A stretch of 32,435 nt of DNA from Actinomycetes bacterium (GTDB taxonomy: Bacteria > Actinomycetota > Acidimicrobiia > Acidimicrobiales > Ilumatobacteraceae): contig JANYDH010000171.1 in the NCBI GenBank assembly GCA_025359865.1, positions 1 through 32,435 of the forward strand, in the 5' to 3' direction. Position 1 is the stretch's first letter. Each line of letters begins with the position of its first letter. The position numbers were made by a program, and so were the translations under genes. Below, piece after piece: positions 4,297 to 14,233 of the stretch. The notes below the pieces were generated by a model, which was not told the origin of the DNA, ran no database searches, and worked only from the letters and a program-made list of their open reading frames with translations.

Positions 4297-4368
<72 letters not shown>

Positions 4369-4387
4369 CAGAAAGCGAGCATTGCAG

Positions 4388-4780
4388 ATGAGCTATCAGC
4401 ACGCGATCGTTTGGCTCGACCATCATGAGGCGCGAATCATCGACTTCAGTGTGGATGACAAGCACGTGGTGACCGTCCAGCAAGAAGGGGGCCAACGAAA
4501 GGTGCACCTCAAGTCCACGGTGATCGGCTCTGGTAAGGCGAAGCAAGACCACCACTATTTTGACGAGATCGTCGAGTCGCTCGGCAACGTACGTGAGATC
4601 CTCATCACCGGTCCTGGATCGGCTAAAACAGAGTTCAGCAAGGACCTGGCCAAACGGCATGCAGACGTAGCCAAGCGGGTGGTGGGTATCGAATCACTCG
4701 ACCACCCGAGCGACGGAGAGCTACTCGCATATGCGAAGAAATCGTTCAAACGCATCGACGCGATGCTCGGCGATCATTGA
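4388..4780 (+). CDS. baeRF/eRF1-domain-like 'translational machinery' protein, 130 aa
   Basis: The protein starts MSYQHAIVWLDHHEARIIDF and continues with QDHHYFDEIVESL, then REILITGPGSAKTEF, then VVGIESLDHPSDGELLAYAKKSFK. This pattern matches small bacterial proteins annotated as translational machinery or host-attachment-like, related to the central domain of eRF1/Pelota (the baeRF superfamily). The GPGSAK segment and the final DHPSDGELLAYA block are the most family-specific parts. A ribosome-rescue or peptidyl-tRNA-linked role is inferred from the fold family, not shown. ATG 4388 is preferred over the in-frame TTG at 4382 because known members begin with MSxxHAVVW-type sequence. The ribosome-binding site is weak (GAAAG about 12 nt upstream). 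The gene stands alone. Confidence 0.7.
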   Translation: MSYQHAIVWLDHHEARIIDFSVDDKHVVTVQQEGGQRKVHLKSTVIGSGKAKQDHHYFDEIVESLGNVREILITGPGSAKTEFSKDLAKRHADVAKRVVGIESLDHPSDGELLAYAKKSFKRIDAMLGDH

Positions 4781-4845: not shown

Positions 4846-7800
4846 ATGATCACCGACCCTCGCGACCAGTCAGACGACTCCGTCGGTGGACGTTGCGCGA
4901 GCCGTCAGCAGTTGCTCGATGAGATCGAGGCCTGGCAGCAAGTCGGTGGAGAACTCGGCGTGATCCACCTCGATCTCGATCATTTTCATCACGTCAACAC
5001 TCGTTTTGGTCAACACGTCGGCGATGCGGTGCTCCTCGCTGTCGGGGAACGCCTTCGCGAGTGTTCGCCGTCGAACGGCGTGATCGCCTCGGTCGATGGC
5101 GATGCGTTCTTGGCATTCGTCCCCGGCGCGGATGCGGCATCCGTACGCGCTGTCGCCGAGCGACTACTGGGTGTTGTTGCAGCGCCGATGGTGGAAGGCA
5201 CCGACCACATCCAACTCCGTGCTACGGCAGGAATTGCCTGGCGGATGGACTCGTATAGCGGGCTCGATCTGGTCGAACAATCCTTTCTTGCGTGCAGGAG
5301 AGCAAAGTCCACGGCGCCCGGCACCGTCGCCGGGTATGAGTTGGCGCTCGGTGATGAGGCGCAGCGTCGCCAGCGTGTGGCCGAAGACCTGCGTCGCGCG
5401 ATCAGCCACAATGAGCTCCGCTTGTACGTACAGCCGAAGGTCGACCTCCGTGATGGTGCCGTCGTGGGCGTCGAGGCACTCGTGCGGTGGCAGCATCCGG
5501 TCGACGGTCTAATGTTGCCAGGACGGTTCCTGCCCGATGCCGAGGCAGCTGGACTGATGGTGGCGATCGGCGACTGGGTGGTGACCGAGGCGATCGCACT
5601 GGCGATGCGCTGGCGTACCATTCGCAATGGTCAGCCGATGCGGATCTGGGTGAACCTTGCGGCACAGCAACTTGCGAAGGGCGACCGGTTGCATGACCGT
5701 GTGCGCGATGCCATCACCACGGGCCTCATCGCTCCCGAGTCGATCGGATTCGAAGTTACCGAGTCGAGTCTTTTGGAGGATCTGCCCAGCGCTGTTGAGG
5801 CGCTGATGTTGCTACGCGAGCTCGGCATCGAGATTTCACTCGACGATTTCGGGACCGGATACTCGTCGCTGTCGTATCTGCGCCAACTACCGGTTACCGC
5901 CGTCAAGATCGATCAGCAATTTGTTGCCGGCATCGGCGGCTCATTGGCGGACGAGGCCATCATCGAAGCGGTCATCGACCTGGCGCACGCACTGGGGTTA
6001 CGCGTTGTCGCCGAAGGGATCGAGGCAGTCGCTCAGGCCGAGGCACTCATCCGGATGGGTGCCGATCGGGCTCAGGGGTACTACTTCGGACGGCCCGTGC
6101 CACCGGAGGACCTCGAACCACGATTTGGGATTGCGTGGTGCGGGGCCGCCGCCCCGACCGTTGTCGGTGCGCGGGGCGACCGTAGGGCCGATGAGTTGCC
6201 GGGCTTTGGGTCGCCGCGCGCGCGCTTGCTGCTGGCGGCGCTCGATGCTGCGCAGGACTCGATCGTGGTCACCGCTGCCGGGGCGGGCCGAATGCTCGAT
6301 CGTCCGATCGTCTATATCAACTCGGCATTCGCGCGCGACTACCGATATGCACCGGGGGACGTGGTTGGCCAGACGATTGAGTTGTTACTGCCCGAACATC
6401 GTGAGTCAGAACTGGTGGACTGGCTCGACGAACTTCACGCCACCCGACGGGCCGGCACCCGCGAGATGATCAACCGTCGATCCGACGGTTCGTTGTTCCC
6501 GACCGAGATAACGGTCAGCCCGATCTCGGACGAGCGCGGTGTCCATACCCACTGGCTGCAGATCGGCCGAGACCTCACCGCGCGGCGCGCGGCTGAGGGC
6601 GACCGGGCTTTGTTCGAGGGCCTCATCGAGCAGACGAGCGCATTGGTGTTCATTGCCGAGACCGGCGGGCAGTGGGTCTATGCGAATGCGGCCATGCGTA
6701 GGGCGATTGGCCTGCTCCCCGATGCTTCGCTCGACGGTGTGAACACCCGCACGGTGCTGCCACCGAGCGAGTTGACGATGATCGGCGAAGTAGTGATACC
6801 GCACTTGCTGGGCAACGGTAGCTGGCGTGGCGACTGCCGGCTCGTGCATCCGGGAACCGGCGCGGTCATTGAGGTGAGCGTCGATGTACAGATGTTCGAT
6901 GATCCGTTACGACCTGATGTGCAGGTGTTTGCAGGAGTGTGTCGCGACGAGACCGACAGTAATGCCCGAAGGTGCGAAGAGGATCGCAGGCGCGAGCTTG
7001 GTGGATTCGCGGCCGAGATAGCGCGACAGTCGTTGGCAAACGATGCACGTCGAGTACTCGCTGATGCTGGGTCAATTCTCGAATCACTCGGCGTGCTGCT
7101 GCGCGCCGACCTCGCATTTCTCAACCGCATCGACAAGGAGCAGGGCTTGCTCACCTTGCTTGGCGAGTGGACGAGCGACCGCTATACGCAGTCCACCGAT
7201 ATGTCACAGCCGCTGCATCTCGACCGGCTGCCACAGTGGATCGCTCATCTCGCGGACTGCGAGCTCAGCATCAGCTCGCAGACTGGCGTCCACGAATCCT
7301 GGCGCGCCGAGGTATCTGCGGTGTTTGCGGATTCGCCGCTTGGAAGCGATGTGTCGGCTCCGCTGCGGATCGGCGGCGAGTTGCTGGGGGTGCTGGGAGT
7401 GGCAACCCGCGACGCCTCCCACGTCTGGTCGGCTGATGAGCTTGGGTGCATCCAGATGGTCGCCGACACGATTGCAGGGGCACTGGCTCGCGAGCGGGCG
7501 TCGAGCGCATTGCGTCTGAGCGAGGAACGGCAATCGACATTGTTGTTGAGTGTCGCCGATGTGCTTGCGGTGATCGATCCGGAGGGAACGATCCGCTACG
7601 TCAACCCGATCATCGAGTCCAAATTCGGGCATCTGCCGACCGAGGTGAGGGGCCGCAACTTCATCGAACTCGTTCACCCGGATGACCAGTTGTTGGCGGT
7701 GACCAGTTTTTCGTCCACCCTTGCAGGCGAACTCCCGCCTATCACAGAGTTGCGGATGATGTGCGCTGATGGAACCTTCATCTGGTGCGATGTCGATACG

Positions 7801-10197
7801 AGCGGTGTCTACCACGAGGTGATCGGAGGGTACATGGTCTCGCTGCGCGATATATCCGGCCAGCGCGCCTCGGTCGCCGCAACCGAACACCGTGCGGAGC
7901 TCGAGCAGGTGGCGCTCGCGGTGTCTCACTGGGCGGTCGAAGTGAAGTCCGAGGACCTTGTCGATGGCCTGGCAAACCGGCTCGCCGAACTCGGTCGAGC
8001 GCTAAACGTCGATATCGCCTTCGTTGACTTGTTCGACGGCGATCAGCTTCGCTCGGTCGGCAATTGGGCACGTACCGGAGCCCCCGCCAAGAGCCTGGAG
8101 ATGCCCGAACACGATGCGTCGATGCCCTCATTGATCGAGCGGTTTCGCACGCTTGTGCCGCTGATCGTCGAGGATATCCATACCCATTCTGAGCCATGGG
8201 CCGATGAGTGGCGAAGTTTTCCTGTTGCCGATCGCGCCGGCGTCAACGTCGCGCTGGTGTCGGAAGGCAGATGCATTGGGGTACTTGGCGTCGCATGCGC
8301 TGACGAACCGCGGCGGTGGAATGACGACGAAATCGCGCTCGTTCAACGCTTCGCTGAGGTTGTGTCCGCACTGTTCGCGCGTCAAGCGATTGAGCTCTCG
8401 CTGCGAACCAGCGAGGAGCGATTGGCTGCGTTGCTCGATGCATCGCTCGACATTGTGGTGGTCGTCGACCAAGACGGTCTCATCACCTACGCCAACGGCG
8501 CCGTGCAGGGTGCACTTGGTTACCGATCATCCGACATGGTCGGTCTCCATGTGCTCACAGTCGTGCACCCGGATGATGCCGCGTTCACTCGATCGCGTCT
8601 CGAGTCGTTGTTGGCCGATGTGCCCACCTCGCGCGTGTCGGTTCGATTGGTCGGGGTCGACGGTTTCGCCGGTTCGTGGGAGATCACCAGCGGCCACCGG
8701 CGCGACCCGGTGGCGGGCGGACGGGTGCTCACGTGTCGCAACGTGACGCAAGAGTTGGCGCAGGAGGCCCAAGATGCCAGGTCGGCTGAGCTGATGGCTC
8801 TCTCGTTCGATGTGGCTCAGCAGGCACTCGACCTCGACTCCAGGGCGTTTTTGGCCAAGCTCGAGAACATCTGCGAGCGAATCGGCCAGCTCATCGATGT
8901 CGACTTCGTGTACGTCGACCAACTCGACGAGGTCGGGGGACAGCTAGTACTGCTGGGGGGTTGGAACCGGGAAGGCACATTCGCCACAGGTCGAACGGTC
9001 CCACTCGATGGTCTGCCTCATTGGGTGGCCCGCCTGCGGCTTGCCGAGCCGATCGTGCGGTTCCACCAGAGCGATCTTGACGACAGCGAGTGGTCGACCG
9101 AGAAGCGACGTGCCTGGGGTGAACACGGCGGGTTGATCGAGGTAGCGATGTCATCAGCCGGTGAACTGTTCGGGGTGATCGGCGTGTCGATGACGTCCGA
9201 CTCGCGGCATTGGAGTCCCGACGAGGTGACGTTCTTACGAATGATCGGCGAGACCATCGCCCACGTGCTCGAGCGAGCCCGTCTCGATGATGCATTGAAA
9301 GACAGCGAGGCTCGGTTCCGGTTGCTGTCGGAAGCTGCTGCCGATCTGATCCTGCTCGTCAGCTCGAAGGGATTCATCACCTACGCCTCGCCATCATCGG
9401 TCGCCGTCGTCGGCTACACGCCCGACGAATTGAACGGGCGGAATACGCTCGAACTCGTCCATCCAGATGACCGCAAGGACGGGCCGGAGCGCCGGCGCCT
9501 TGTGCTGGCGAGGGTCACTTCCACGTCGGAGATGCGGCTCATTCATAAAGACGGGCGCACCATCTGGGTGGTCAACTCCACTTCCGTGGTGCGCCAACCC
9601 GAGATTCCCGACGAGTACCAGTACCGCATCAGTCTGCGCGACATCTCCGATCTGAAGCGCCTGGAGGGTGAATTGGAGTTCCAGGCGCTGCACGACCCAC
9701 TCACCGGTCTTGCCAATCGCACGCTGCTCGCAAGCAGGCTGGCGATCGCCATCGCACGTCGGGCACGACCGAACGATGTGTCCGTGCTGATGATCGATCT
9801 GGACGGCTTCAAGGAGGTCAACGACACCTATGGCCATACCGTGGGTGATGAAGTATTGAGGATGGTTGCCGTTCGGCTCGAACGCCTGACCCGTCCGACC
9901 GACACGCTAGCCCGAGTCGGTGGCGACGAGTTCGTGTTGTTGTGCCCTGAGACCGACGTTGACGGTGCCGTGGCGATCGCTGCACGGATCATCGAGGTGC
10001 TCCACCAGTCATTCACCGGTGAGGGCTTCGAGATCGAGTTCGGAGCGAGCATCGGTGTTGCTCATCGACAGGGTGGCGATGCTGATCCGGAAGCGCTCGT
10101 CAATGAAGCAGACCAGGCGATGTACACGGCCAAACACGCTGGCCGCGGTCTCATCCGCGTTTCGGGACAGACTGAGGATTCAGCCGTTCTTCGGTAG
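4846..10197 (+). CDS. giant GGDEF-EAL-PAS/GAF-GGDEF c-di-GMP signalling protein, 1783 aa
   Basis: Domains in order, with approximate residues: GGDEF-like 20-165; EAL 184-424; PAS 459-580; PAS 585-702; GAF 725-884; PAS 892-1005; GAF 1019-1180; PAS 1185-1300; GAF 1316-1479; PAS 1485-1605; GGDEF 1609-1775. The first GGDEF is degenerate: D84-GDAF replaces the motif, although DLDHFHHVN and GD are kept, so it is likely inactive or nucleotide-sensing. The EAL domain looks active (EALVRW at 210, FEVTES, DDFGTGYSSL at 333, KIDQQF, AEGIE, QGYYFGRP). The last GGDEF (1692-1696) is canonical and has an RPTD inhibitory I-site five residues before it. No membrane segment is evident, so the protein is probably cytosolic. 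It should both make and break c-di-GMP under control of the PAS/GAF sensors. Its 3' end overlaps the convergent acyl-CoA dehydrogenase gene by 18 bp. Confidence 0.94.
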   Translation: MITDPRDQSDDSVGGRCASRQQLLDEIEAWQQVGGELGVIHLDLDHFHHVNTRFGQHVGDAVLLAVGERLRECSPSNGVIASVDGDAFLAFVPGADAASVRAVAERLLGVVAAPMVEGTDHIQLRATAGIAWRMDSYSGLDLVEQSFLACRRAKSTAPGTVAGYELALGDEAQRRQRVAEDLRRAISHNELRLYVQPKVDLRDGAVVGVEALVRWQHPVDGLMLPGRFLPDAEAAGLMVAIGDWVVTEAIALAMRWRTIRNGQPMRIWVNLAAQQLAKGDRLHDRVRDAITTGLIAPESIGFEVTESSLLEDLPSAVEALMLLRELGIEISLDDFGTGYSSLSYLRQLPVTAVKIDQQFVAGIGGSLADEAIIEAVIDLAHALGLRVVAEGIEAVAQAEALIRMGADRAQGYYFGRPVPPEDLEPRFGIAWCGAAAPTVVGARGDRRADELPGFGSPRARLLLAALDAAQDSIVVTAAGAGRMLDRPIVYINSAFARDYRYAPGDVVGQTIELLLPEHRESELVDWLDELHATRRAGTREMINRRSDGSLFPTEITVSPISDERGVHTHWLQIGRDLTARRAAEGDRALFEGLIEQTSALVFIAETGGQWVYANAAMRRAIGLLPDASLDGVNTRTVLPPSELTMIGEVVIPHLLGNGSWRGDCRLVHPGTGAVIEVSVDVQMFDDPLRPDVQVFAGVCRDETDSNARRCEEDRRRELGGFAAEIARQSLANDARRVLADAGSILESLGVLLRADLAFLNRIDKEQGLLTLLGEWTSDRYTQSTDMSQPLHLDRLPQWIAHLADCELSISSQTGVHESWRAEVSAVFADSPLGSDVSAPLRIGGELLGVLGVATRDASHVWSADELGCIQMVADTIAGALARERASSALRLSEERQSTLLLSVADVLAVIDPEGTIRYVNPIIESKFGHLPTEVRGRNFIELVHPDDQLLAVTSFSSTLAGELPPITELRMMCADGTFIWCDVDTSGVYHEVIGGYMVSLRDISGQRASVAATEHRAELEQVALAVSHWAVEVKSEDLVDGLANRLAELGRALNVDIAFVDLFDGDQLRSVGNWARTGAPAKSLEMPEHDASMPSLIERFRTLVPLIVEDIHTHSEPWADEWRSFPVADRAGVNVALVSEGRCIGVLGVACADEPRRWNDDEIALVQRFAEVVSALFARQAIELSLRTSEERLAALLDASLDIVVVVDQDGLITYANGAVQGALGYRSSDMVGLHVLTVVHPDDAAFTRSRLESLLADVPTSRVSVRLVGVDGFAGSWEITSGHRRDPVAGGRVLTCRNVTQELAQEAQDARSAELMALSFDVAQQALDLDSRAFLAKLENICERIGQLIDVDFVYVDQLDEVGGQLVLLGGWNREGTFATGRTVPLDGLPHWVARLRLAEPIVRFHQSDLDDSEWSTEKRRAWGEHGGLIEVAMSSAGELFGVIGVSMTSDSRHWSPDEVTFLRMIGETIAHVLERARLDDALKDSEARFRLLSEAAADLILLVSSKGFITYASPSSVAVVGYTPDELNGRNTLELVHPDDRKDGPERRRLVLARVTSTSEMRLIHKDGRTIWVVNSTSVVRQPEIPDEYQYRISLRDISDLKRLEGELEFQALHDPLTGLANRTLLASRLAIAIARRARPNDVSVLMIDLDGFKEVNDTYGHTVGDEVLRMVAVRLERLTRPTDTLARVGGDEFVLLCPETDVDGAVAIAARIIEVLHQSFTGEGFEIEFGASIGVAHRQGGDADPEALVNEADQAMYTAKHAGRGLIRVSGQTEDSAVLR

Positions 10198-11487
10198 TTC
10201 GCTCCACGGCGTGATGCGCTCGTTGCTCGGCTCCTTGGGCAAGCCGAGCACTCGCTCGCCGATGATGTTGCGCTGTACCTGGTCGGTGCCACCGTAGATC
10301 GGTGGTGCCTGGGCAAAGAGCGCCATCTCGGTGATAAAGGCGAGCATCGGCTGACCGGTCGCCTCGTCGAGCGCTCGGCGCTGAGTGCTGTCGTAGGCAT
10401 GGAGCATGCCGTAGCCGCCGGTGATGGCGAGGCCGAGGTCGCGTGATTGGCGAACGATCTCGCTCATCGAGAGCTTGCCGATGTTGCCGGCACCCGGAAT
10501 GTCGCGTCCGGCGGCTTTTTCTGCCTTGAGCCGCAGTGTCGTGTAGCGACCGATCTCGCCCAGGGTGTGCAGTCGCATCAGCGCTTGGCGGATGTTCGGG
10601 TCGTGGATCTTGCCGTTCTGTTTTGCCGACTCGACGAACATTGCCTGCGCACCCGCAGTCATTGCTCCGCCTCCGCCGCTGCCGGGTGATCGCGGTGCCC
10701 GGACGAAGTCGCCGGCGCGCTTGGGGAGGTCGCCGGCGATCGTGCCAGGGTTGGCCAACGCAACGCCGCTGGTGCCGCCCGCACCCAACCCGCTTCGTTC
10801 GTATGCGAGCGTGGTATTGGCGACCGCCCACCCGTTGTGCAAGCCGCCAATGATGGCGTCGTCGCCCACCCGCGCATCGGTGAGGAACACCTCGTTGAAG
10901 AGTGCCCTGCCCGTCATCTCGCGCAGGGGGCGAACATCGACGAGACCCGGTTGATGCATGTCGATCGAGAACCAGGTGATGCCCTGGTGTTTGGGTGAGT
11001 CGGGATTGGTACGCGCGATCAGCATGCCCATGTCGGCGTAATGACCACCGGACGTCCACACCTTCTGGCCGTTGACCACCCACTCGTCACCGTCTTTCAC
11101 AGCCCGACAGCCGAGTCCGGCAAGGTCAGAGCCGGCACCCGGCTCGCTGAACAATTGGCACCACGCTTGGGCGCCGATGACGATCGGTCGTACGAACCGC
11201 TCGATCTGCTCGGGTGTTCCATGTGTCGCAATGGTCGGAGCGGCGAGCAGCATCCCGAGCCCGCCCGGCGCGCCCAACGCGCCGCGCTCGGCAATGCGGT
11301 TCGACACGGCGATGGCTTCGTTGCGGGAGAGGTCTTTGCCGAACGCACTGGTCGGCAGCGACGGTGATGCCCATCCGGACTGCCCCAGCAGCTGCCACCA
11401 CTCTGCCACGGTGAGGTCGGGGTTCCAGTTTGCATCAAGCCATTCGTCGAGCTCGTCGAGGATGCTCTGCTGCGATCTGTCAGTCAT
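10180..11487 (-). CDS. acyl-CoA dehydrogenase family protein, about 435 aa
   Basis: This is a FAD-dependent alpha,beta-dehydrogenase of acyl-CoA thioesters. Visible motifs are WCQLFSEPGAGSDLAGL (FAD/substrate-binding signature), WVVNGQKVWTSGGHYADMG, ITWFSIDMHQPGL, the central helix region ending in GNIGKLSMSEIVRQ, and the C-terminal IYGGTDQVQRNIIGERVLGLPKEP. Where classic enzymes have the catalytic Glu in YEGT, this one has YGGT. That form is common in actinobacterial FadE homologues, some of which work as heteromers. The start is uncertain: ATG codons at 11487, 11505 and 11523 are in frame, none with a clear ribosome site. 11487 (MTDRSQQ) is taken as the most conservative. The gene is divergent from the SDR gene, which probably serves a related lipid pathway. 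Confidence 0.92.
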   Translation of the reverse strand: MTDRSQQSILDELDEWLDANWNPDLTVAEWWQLLGQSGWASPSLPTSAFGKDLSRNEAIAVSNRIAERGALGAPGGLGMLLAAPTIATHGTPEQIERFVRPIVIGAQAWCQLFSEPGAGSDLAGLGCRAVKDGDEWVVNGQKVWTSGGHYADMGMLIARTNPDSPKHQGITWFSIDMHQPGLVDVRPLREMTGRALFNEVFLTDARVGDDAIIGGLHNGWAVANTTLAYERSGLGAGGTSGVALANPGTIAGDLPKRAGDFVRAPRSPGSGGGGAMTAGAQAMFVESAKQNGKIHDPNIRQALMRLHTLGEIGRYTTLRLKAEKAAGRDIPGAGNIGKLSMSEIVRQSRDLGLAITGGYGMLHAYDSTQRRALDEATGQPMLAFITEMALFAQAPPIYGGTDQVQRNIIGERVLGLPKEPSNERITPWSELPKNG

Positions 11488-11553
11488 GCTCACAGACAAC
11501 TCCATCGTGGCCCGATCATCCAACTCGGGCTACTTGCGCGACGGTGCCGATGA

Positions 11554-11559: not shown

Positions 11560-11637
11560 TCGAGCCCGTCAACGAGCGACGGTGGCGAGCGAAGTCGGGC
11601 GAGGGTTCCCCGACGAGGTCTAAGACGAGGGGGAATG

Positions 11638-12603
11638 ATGGAGCACTTCGAAGGACGGCTGGCAGTGATCACCGGTGGCGGTACGGGCATGGGGCGCGAG
11701 TTGTGCCGGCAGCTGGCAGCTGAGGGGTGTCATGTCGCGATGTGCGATGTGTCGGCCGACAACATGGCCGATTCGCAGGCGCTCAGCCTGGACAGCGCCC
11801 CTGCTGGTACCAGGGTCACGATCCACGAAGCCGATGTCAGCGACGAGGCACAAGCCGTCGGCTTTGCTGCTGCGGTCGCTGAGGCACATTCGACGCAGCA
11901 CATCAATCTGCTCTTCAACAACGCAGGCATCGGCGGTGGCGGCAGCTTCATCAACGATTCACGGGCCGAGTGGGACCGCACGTTCGCGGTGTGTTGGGGA
12001 GGGGTCTATGCGTGTACGAGGGCGTTCATGCCGCAGCTCCTCGCGAGCAGCGAAGGGCACGTGATCAACACCAGTAGCGTCAACGGGTTCTGGGCGTCGC
12101 TCGGCCCCGACATTCCCCATACGGCCTATAGTGCCGCGAAGTTCGCGGTAAAGGGATTCACCGAGGCGCTGATCAATGATTTCAGGGTCAACGCACCCCA
12201 TCTGCAGGCGTCGGTCGTGATGCCTGGTCACATCGGCACGTCGATCGTGATCAACTCTGGCAAGATCCTTGGCCGGGAGCCAAAGGAGCTGACCGCCGAG
12301 CAGATCGAGGCGATTCGCGAACGCTTCACCAAGCGCGGCGTGGATCTGAGCGGTGCCAGCGATGAAGACGTTCGTCTCGGATTGCAGATGCAGGCCGAAT
12401 CGTTCCGTGATACGGCACCCATGACTGCGGCGCAGGCCGCTTCAGTCATACTCGCGGGCGTTCGCAACAACGAGTGGCGAATCCTCGTCGGCGACGACGC
12501 GGTCGCGCTCGATTCCATGGTCCGCGACACGCCGGGCGAGGCGTACGAACGGACCTTCGCCGGACGGTTGGAGGCCGCCGGCATCTTCGGCTTTACCCGC
12601 TGA
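11638..12603 (+). CDS. short-chain dehydrogenase/reductase (SDR), 321 aa
   Basis: This is a classical SDR oxidoreductase using NAD(P). It has the nucleotide-binding GGGTGMGRE near residues 14-22, an Asp in MCDVSADN after beta-2 (favouring NAD), NNAG near 98, INTSSVNG carrying the catalytic Ser, and YSAAK carrying the catalytic Tyr and Lys. The C-terminal extension of about 80 residues makes it longer than the usual 250. The substrate is unknown; the family covers hydroxy-fatty acyl, steroid and sugar alcohols. ATG 11638 is chosen over the overlapping ATG 11635 because GAGGGGG (11627-11633) gives 4 nt spacing instead of 1. A GGDEF gene follows closely on the same strand, so an SDR-first operon is likely. 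Confidence 0.9.
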   Translation: MEHFEGRLAVITGGGTGMGRELCRQLAAEGCHVAMCDVSADNMADSQALSLDSAPAGTRVTIHEADVSDEAQAVGFAAAVAEAHSTQHINLLFNNAGIGGGGSFINDSRAEWDRTFAVCWGGVYACTRAFMPQLLASSEGHVINTSSVNGFWASLGPDIPHTAYSAAKFAVKGFTEALINDFRVNAPHLQASVVMPGHIGTSIVINSGKILGREPKELTAEQIEAIRERFTKRGVDLSGASDEDVRLGLQMQAESFRDTAPMTAAQAASVILAGVRNNEWRILVGDDAVALDSMVRDTPGEAYERTFAGRLEAAGIFGFTR

Positions 12604-12649
12604 GGGTACGATCCTCAAGTTGCAGCCGACCGAGCCGATAGTTCCAACG

Positions 12650-14233
12650 ATGAAAGCCGTGTCGGCGGACGCGATCTGGACATCAGCAACCTTGGCCGAA
12701 ACACTAGGCTACGGTGCGGTGTCGTGCAGAGATGCTTTGGCGCGCTCGGTCCCCATCCCGGCACTGCTGCATTCGGTGGAGGGACTCAGCGCCGATGCAC
12801 AGCTCAGCTGGAGTGCCGTTCTCGCACGCGTGCACGGGCTGGACCGCGCCGGCTTTATGCGGGCATGGTCCGCTGCTCTGCTCGCGCCTGGCGTGCCGGT
12901 GGTCTGCCACGTTCGCGAGCAGCGCGCGTGGGCATGGTGGGAACGAGAAGTGGTGACCCTCAATCTTCTCGATGTGCCCGGCGTCTCGGCGGTGATCTGG
13001 GTGTTTCGTGATGTGGGAGCGGTCCCCACCCCTGAAGCCGGCGAAGCCAGGGAGTTCTCCGTCCCGGGCACCCCGGTCTGGCAATTGTTCCATCTCGACG
13101 AGGTCGGCCAAGTACTTCGCTGTGAAGGGTTCACCCGCGAGATCATCGGCGTGGCGCCACATGAGTTGATTGGCGAGCAAACCCTGGGCGATATCCACCC
13201 TGCAGACGCTGATCTGGTGATCAACACCTGGGTCGAACTGCTCCAGAACCCGGGCAGCAGCGTCTCGTTCATGTCGCGAGCGATCCATCGGGTTACGGGT
13301 GAGGCCCGCTGGTACGAGACGATGATGACGAACTGCCTTGCCGATCCTGATGTGCGTGCGGTGCTGGCGATCAGCTACGACATCGAAGAACGCCGCGCAA
13401 AAGAACAGGCGATCATCTCGAGTGAACGGCAGTTCAGGACACTTGCCGAGCAGATCCCGATTGCCGTGTTCCGCTTGGATCCACTCGGGTCCGTCACGTA
13501 CGCCAATGACCTGTTTCGGCTCACGGTCGGAGCGATCGAGCGGATTCACGATCTGCGCAGAGCCGGCATCGATCGGTGGTGGGCCGAGGTGCTCAGTCAA
13601 GACGAATCGGTCGACATCGTGTTGGAGTTGGGTGAGCGATCAGTCAGGATCAGGGGTCGGTCTCAACGCTCAGAGCGAGGTGCCGACGCACACGCCGGCG
13701 TCGAAGCGGTGATCGGCTCCGTGGAAGACGTCACGGCCGATGTCTTGCGAGCACGTCGGTTGGAGACGTTGGCGCACAGCGACCCGCTCACCGGGCTGGC
13801 GAACAGGCGGCTTCTCGAGCAGTTGTTGGATGAGCTCATCTCTGCGGGTGAGTCGTTCGTCGTGCTCGCCGCCGATCTTGACGGCTTCAAGGCCGTGAAC
13901 GATGCGAACGGCCATCACATTGGCGACCTGGTGCTGGTCGAGATCGCTGGTCGGCTGTCGCAGGCTGTTCGGCCAGGCGATCTAGTAGCCCGAGTCGGCG
14001 GAGACGAGTTCGTGCTGGTCTGTCGCGACGTCACCGATGCGGCGTTGGGCGATCTCGTCATGCGAGTCCGCGCGACCGTGAGCCAACCACTCGACGTCGC
14101 GACGGACAGCCACGTATCGCTGAGCATCGGTACCAGCAGGGTCGATGTCGGCGACGACGGTGCCCGAGTATTGCAACGCGCCGACGTTGCGATGTATGAC
14201 GACAAGCGCCGCATCGTCCACGGTGCCGAATGA
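12650..14233 (+). CDS. PAS-containing diguanylate cyclase (GGDEF), about 527 aa
   Basis: The C-terminal GGDEF domain (about 365-520) is intact: SDPLTGLANRRLL, then LAADLDGFKAVNDANGHHIGD, and the GGDEF signature at residues 450-454. An RPGD inhibitory I-site lies five residues before it. Upstream are two or three PAS-like folds: a poorly conserved one at about 20-130, one at about 140-255 (REIIGVAPHELIGEQTLGDIHPAD), and one at about 260-365 (FRTLAEQIPIAVFRLDPLGSVTYAND). It should make c-di-GMP from two GTP in response to an unknown cytosolic cue. An in-frame TTG at 12620 lies 7 nt after a TACGAT box (12607-12612) and could be the true start. ATG 12650 has no ribosome site either. Confidence 0.9.
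   Translation: MKAVSADAIWTSATLAETLGYGAVSCRDALARSVPIPALLHSVEGLSADAQLSWSAVLARVHGLDRAGFMRAWSAALLAPGVPVVCHVREQRAWAWWEREVVTLNLLDVPGVSAVIWVFRDVGAVPTPEAGEAREFSVPGTPVWQLFHLDEVGQVLRCEGFTREIIGVAPHELIGEQTLGDIHPADADLVINTWVELLQNPGSSVSFMSRAIHRVTGEARWYETMMTNCLADPDVRAVLAISYDIEERRAKEQAIISSERQFRTLAEQIPIAVFRLDPLGSVTYANDLFRLTVGAIERIHDLRRAGIDRWWAEVLSQDESVDIVLELGERSVRIRGRSQRSERGADAHAGVEAVIGSVEDVTADVLRARRLETLAHSDPLTGLANRRLLEQLLDELISAGESFVVLAADLDGFKAVNDANGHHIGDLVLVEIAGRLSQAVRPGDLVARVGGDEFVLVCRDVTDAALGDLVMRVRATVSQPLDVATDSHVSLSIGTSRVDVGDDGARVLQRADVAMYDDKRRIVHGAE

Follow-up and report, generated by a model that had tools for sequence, protein, structure and literature searches.

The window analyzed here, a stretch of 32,435 nucleotides, encodes a 1783-residue protein in which a GGDEF-EAL tandem opens the chain, eight PAS and GAF sensor domains follow, and a second, intact GGDEF domain closes it. 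On balance we interpret this protein as a soluble c-di-GMP turnover enzyme in which a GTP-gated phosphodiesterase would be tethered to a sensor-gated, feedback-inhibited cyclase.

The protein is called P below and its paralogue Q; G and L numbers denote the genomes and loci that were compared. The gene (4846..10197, plus strand, as are all parts of it given here) has collinear homologues and is open from the ATG at 4846 to the stop codon at 10195-10197. Pfam searches with the whole protein and with ten separate segments gave the order GGDEF-EAL-PAS-PAS-GAF-PAS-GAF-PAS-GAF-PAS-GGDEF. The degenerate N-terminal GGDEF domain (residues 18-156; 4897..5313; 69 bits) has no sensor ahead of it, lacks an RxxD I-site and contains DGDAF as its motif (residues 84-88; 5095..5109). 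The EAL phosphodiesterase domain that follows (residues 180-417; 5383..6096; 233 bits) carries E210, N270, E303, D333, D334, K354, E390 and Q410, eight positions whose catalytic roles we presume from RocR. At the other end, the predicted diguanylate cyclase domain (residues 1614-1767; 9685..10146) scored 158.8 bits, the highest value among the 29 GGDEF matches in the genome. Its GGDEF motif occupies residues 1692-1696 (9919..9933), and the RxxD of an I-site, R1683-D1686 (9892..9903), lies five residues ahead of it. An initial annotation of this DNA had described a degenerate GGDEF and a complete EAL at the start of the chain and an intact GGDEF with an I-site at its end, and these Pfam matches and motif residues bear out all three domains and their order.

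The sensor array consists of PAS1 (residues 485-579; 6298..6582), PAS2 (about 595-641; 6628..6768), GAF1 (744-880; 7075..7485), PAS3 (899-1003; 7540..7854), GAF2 (1039-1174; 7960..8367), PAS4 (1191-1301; 8416..8748), GAF3 (1339-1473; 8860..9264) and PAS5 (1490-1602; 9313..9651). Seven of these eight domains exceed their own Pfam cut-offs, GAF1 with 27.4 bits against 22.4, and PAS2 falls just below with a weak partial match of 21.9 bits against 23.1. The annotation had counted eight sensors separating the catalytic heads by about 1200 residues, and both figures hold, the distance from the end of the EAL domain to the start of the C-terminal GGDEF being ca. 1,197 residues. No CBS domain was found between the heads by Pfam on the whole protein. 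Among the best 25 of 47 NCBIfam matches just the two domain models exceeded their cut-offs; all 23 equivalogs of c-di-GMP proteins stayed under the curated value, the best being DibA with a score of 501 against 980. A segment is usually taken as membrane-spanning above a Kyte-Doolittle mean of about 1.6. The most hydrophobic 19-residue stretches come near this threshold, with 1.65 in P and 1.74 in Q, but that of P belongs to the EAL domain (residues 371-389) and that of Q to the GAF3 region. A membrane protein was rejected for this reason, and P is read as soluble.

Conservation of the heads was counted in a family alignment of 12 rows for 10 copies, over the rows that cover a given position. 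All 9 rows that cover E210 of the EAL domain have it, and the remaining seven catalytic positions are filled in 10 of 10; the same residues are invariant in alignments A1 (four proteins) and A2. The EAL domain of G596 has DDFVTGYSS in place of DDFGTGYSS. The C-terminal GGDEF motif and the R and D of the I-site are each found in 9/9 rows. Every covering copy thus has the full catalytic motifs of both heads, and both heads are under purifying selection, which speaks against a protein with mainly one activity, phosphodiesterase or cyclase, whose other head would bind c-di-GMP or GTP as a receptor and not turn it over. We consider such a division unlikely. It has a parallel in RapA, the homologue of the EAL-CBS-GGDEF protein PA3258, which is described as a phosphodiesterase (PMC12900916; PMC3032545).

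The first GGDEF domain is variable. Its motif reads DGDAF in four rows, EGDSY in two, and GGNGF, QGGAF and -GPTF in the remaining ones, and the motif Glu is present in none of the nine covering rows. Each of the 19 ordinary relatives that A2 sets beside P has this Glu, so its loss is a trait of the family. D43, N51 and D60, which we take to correspond by position to D327, N335 and D344 of PleD, are retained in 9/9 rows. The third motif residue is D in 6/9 rows and D45 is present in 8/9; since neither is universal, GTP binding may differ among the copies. D344 is reported as a guanine-binding residue of PleD, and the degenerate GGDEF domain of Caulobacter CC3396 (PdeA) binds GTP and activates the adjoining EAL domain (PMC7288161). 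The first GGDEF domain of P has likewise lost its motif and kept guanine-site residues, and by analogy with CC3396 the N-terminal half of P may be GTP-gated. CC3396 is not known to carry a PAS/GAF array with an active cyclase behind it.

Between P and Q the EAL and C-terminal GGDEF domains are 65% and 66% identical, the sensors 38-50% and the degenerate GGDEF 41%. Values of dN/dS were below 0.5 in every domain compared. For the pair G595/G596 they were 0.05 for EAL, 0.11 for the degenerate GGDEF, 0.15 for the C-terminal GGDEF and 0.13 for the whole gene; the sensors gave 0.08 (PAS2), 0.09 (GAF3), 0.11 (GAF2), 0.13 (PAS5), 0.14 (GAF1), 0.35 (PAS4) and 0.37 (PAS3). Five sensors are in this pair at least as constrained as the C-terminal GGDEF, so a stronger conservation of heads than of sensors is clear just in the other comparisons. 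In G595/G593 the EAL domain gave 0.13 and the C-terminal GGDEF 0.17, against 0.26-0.46 for the sensors, and in G002/G001 the degenerate GGDEF and EAL domains gave 0.02 and 0.04. The PAS1 value of the latter pair (0.19) was disregarded because the G001 piece leaves frame there.

The middle of the protein is largely made of tandem PAS-GAF units, each about 300 residues long: PAS3-GAF2 matches PAS4-GAF3 with an E-value of 2e-33 and PAS2-GAF1 matches PAS4-GAF3 with 9e-24. PAS1 has no clear kinship to the other sensors (best E-value 0.14). The G019 copy is without PAS3, GAF1 running straight into GAF2, which indicates that single sensors have been gained or lost. Except around this missing domain, the linkers between PAS1 and the C-terminal GGDEF, including the one that follows PAS5, have a constant length in all covering rows. 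In the six full-length proteins these linkers hold no indels, and the EAL-PAS1 linker (6115..6231), with two, is the sole linker from EAL onward that has any. We treat the absence as a hint, since for the 15 events listed along 1,310 residues, of which 226 are in linkers, our arithmetic puts its chance occurrence at about 0.06. The composition of the ten linkers follows the same division: proline and glycine make up 25% of the EAL-PAS1 linker, the highest value, 15% of the GGDEF-EAL linker and 0-6% of the other eight.

The EAL-PAS1 linker is Pro/Gly-rich yet not featureless. Its length varies by one residue, and 9 of 10 rows share the core LPGFGS[PA]RARLL, which is altered in Q. An AlphaFold2 model of residues 1-470 shows folded GGDEF and EAL domains with a mean pLDDT of 83 and values below 50 for residues 428-455; the low values in the predicted hinge may reflect the other rows of A2 being cut near the end of EAL. 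A hinge with a conserved core may dock rather than decouple. This bears on the main alternative, a coupled push-pull in which the array would drive the heads in opposite directions, one signal switching synthesis on and hydrolysis off. PAS1 does adjoin the EAL domain, the linker core may transmit a signal, and the domain order is kept down to about 42-50% identity. Yet the linker that would have to carry the signal is the one richest in proline and glycine and the sole one from EAL onward with indels, and no sensor lies N-terminal to the GGDEF-EAL tandem. We regard this coupling as possible but rather doubtful. Independent control of each head, as suggested in the initial annotation, fits the linker pattern; the control itself is something that we infer, and it may be that the sensors act on the cyclase alone.

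The paralogue Q lies on contig C83 (L030:6481-11817, minus strand), has 1778 residues in the same domain order and is 49% identical to P across 1757 aligned residues. The whole genome holds 16 EAL matches besides the GGDEF matches, and by coordinates 12 frames contain both domains; 10 are of the usual GGDEF-EAL type and two, P and Q, have a further GGDEF far downstream. The family was found in all five genomes of the genus. Across the bacterial family, 9 of the 221 genomes, belonging to 3 of the 27 genera, carry it, and the copies number 10 in total. Eight of these genomes gave matches to the sensor region at E-values up to 1e-70, and G001, known from the N-terminal part, is the ninth. Single open frames of 1778-1789 residues are present for P, Q, G002 and G004, and of 1819 and 1817 residues for G595 and G596. 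The other four copies are interrupted by a contig end or by a shift of frame: that of G001 has a contig end and a frame change near residue 483 (L048), that of G003 (L045) a frame change near residues 1057-1086, that of G019 spans two contig pieces (L046/L047), and that of G593 begins at a contig end.

The gene might in principle be a fusion, produced by assembly or gene calling, of a GGDEF-EAL gene with an adjacent PAS/GAF-GGDEF gene, and the mid-gene frame shifts in two of the ten copies (G001 and G003) could be taken in this sense; they may also be due to assembly error or recent decay. We consider a fusion highly improbable because the same domain order is found in a full-length paralogue on a separate contig and in collinear copies of other genomes, with intact single frames in P, Q, G002 and G004, open frames in G595 and G596 and conserved downstream genes. 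An assembly fusion at the window locus, the objection foreseen in the annotation, is thereby refuted. Nor did a search of the 221 genomes of the bacterial family, with up to four candidates scored in each, find a parent cyclase carrying this array as a protein of its own: beyond the family it gave two matches at E-values up to 1e-50, in G521 and on C201 of G596, and both proteins (L202 and L204) end in GGDEF-EAL. A plasmid origin was rejected as well, a near search of plasmids returning just one record with a 66-base match.

In 397 genomes of the order, queried with the EAL-PAS1-PAS2 segment, no further member was among the matches listed; the best after P and Q had an E-value of 4.6e-74, and none listed extended past residue 307 of the 540-residue query. 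Samples of the class (395 genomes) and the phylum (396) also yielded no further member; the three samples overlap, and two or three candidates were scored per genome. When named genomes were scanned, just L049 among the 80 best loci proved to belong to the family (62% identity, the rest being at most 41%), and this locus is the cut, frame-shifted copy of G001. In a quick EAL tree nine family rows, including P (L028) and Q (L027), formed one clade with an SH-aLRT support of 99.

Downstream of the P gene lie a convergent acyl-CoA dehydrogenase gene (10183-11523, minus strand) and a short-chain dehydrogenase gene (11635-12600, plus strand). Relatives of both adjoin the family copy in G002, G004 and G003, and Q is flanked by frames whose translations read as aspartate-kinase-like and aspartate-semialdehyde-dehydrogenase-like, so P occupies the shared locus and Q is the displaced copy. 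The frame just upstream of P (4337-4777, plus strand) has relatives with 53-54% identity that sit downstream of the short-chain dehydrogenase gene in G002 and G004, which indicates that this flank was rearranged. About 2.4 kb downstream of P the window contains a PAS-PAS-GGDEF gene (12620-14230, plus strand), whose only matches in the stretches compared are the family genes themselves. The neighborhood of P holds no gene that names a target. At Rfam gathering scores the RNA elements were just a tRNA in the window and just a tRNA in L030; no promoter-like sites were found around the gene, and four terminator-like sites compare with 3.1 in shuffled sequences.

The arrangement of the heads was compared with that of other proteins by sorting 113 frames with an EAL domain, drawn from 105 loci (L049-L128, L172-L194, L202 and L204), a non-random set picked for EAL similarity, long frames or family membership. 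EAL in last place is the rule in this sample: 109 frames end in it, one of them the cut family copy at L049. GGDEF follows EAL in the other four, three family members and one frame at L084. The latter (L084:5220-7229, minus strand; Rhodocyclus gracilis) encodes 670 residues in the RapA-type order EAL-CBS-CBS-GGDEF, with weak EAL and GGDEF scores of 50 and 46 bits, and came up by chance in a locus chosen because of its GGDEF-EAL gene. Another unusual protein, in G015 of the same bacterial family (L184:4169-8641, minus strand; 1491 residues), has the order GGDEF-EAL-GAF-winged helix (Trans_reg_C)-PAS-second EAL; its second EAL domain appears from the translation to lack the EAL motif, so that this chain would unite turnover with DNA binding and a receptor-like EAL.

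Shorter proteins with EAL first and GGDEF last are known, so heads at opposite ends are not new in themselves. RapA and PA3258 have EAL on the N-terminal side, sensors in the middle and GGDEF on the C-terminal side (PMC12900916), an order that P shares only in part, a pseudo-GGDEF standing ahead of its EAL; they differ from P in having a CBS pair in place of eight PAS/GAF domains and no N-terminal pseudo-GGDEF. An N-terminal EAL with a GGDEF after it is also found in Streptomyces (SAZ_08970 type, PMC6205966) and Azospirillum (PMC5845226). The available excerpts describe no long sensor array in these proteins, and report that the Streptomyces type is missing a key EAL Glu and has a GGDDF motif (PMC6205966). 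By sequence and fold the best PDB matches of the N-terminal part of P are the GGDEF-EAL tandems of PA0575 (5m3c, titled with GTP and Ca2+ bound, and the top match of the model of residues 1-470) and MorA (4rnh). In PA0575, which we take to be RmcA, and in MorA the tandem closes the chain; in P it opens the chain and has a mutated GGDEF motif, and the protein finishes with a second GGDEF. The features that appear new are the extra pseudo-GGDEF and the array of eight sensor domains, conserved across three genera in a protein built from known parts. No description of this combination was found in the open-licence literature, where synonyms may go unmatched. The string 'GGDEF-EAL-GGDEF' and opposite-end heads with PAS-GAF and tandem PAS were likewise not found there, nor was 'EAL-PAS' among the matches listed.

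In the reading that we favor, the N-terminal half would be a GGDEF-EAL phosphodiesterase module whose catalytically lost GGDEF probably reads GTP and gates the EAL domain. The C-terminal half would be a PAS/GAF-array diguanylate cyclase, in which signals bound by the array may travel through helical linkers into the last GGDEF, itself probably also subject to product inhibition at the I-site. With a Pro/Gly-rich hinge joining the two halves, the sensors would most likely set synthesis and hydrolysis would follow GTP and local product, so that a single polypeptide could set a local c-di-GMP pool.

Most GGDEF-EAL proteins have the two enzymes next to each other, so that the head under the control of a given sensor is difficult to identify. 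In P some 1,200 sensor residues part the heads, with Pro/Gly-poor linkers of constant length leading to the cyclase and a Pro/Gly-rich hinge to the EAL domain, and truncations can therefore directly test separate inputs for synthesis and hydrolysis. The ten copies also form a natural series on the role of a degenerate GGDEF ahead of an EAL domain. More tentatively, the family may represent a lineage-specific three-headed enzyme, with phosphodiesterase and cyclase dimers at opposite ends of a long sensor rod, the EAL domain gated by GTP through the pseudo-GGDEF and the cyclase both by the rod and by its product acting at the I-site. If this is true, a single molecule would buffer a local pool of c-di-GMP, with a set point given by the GTP level and environmental signals.
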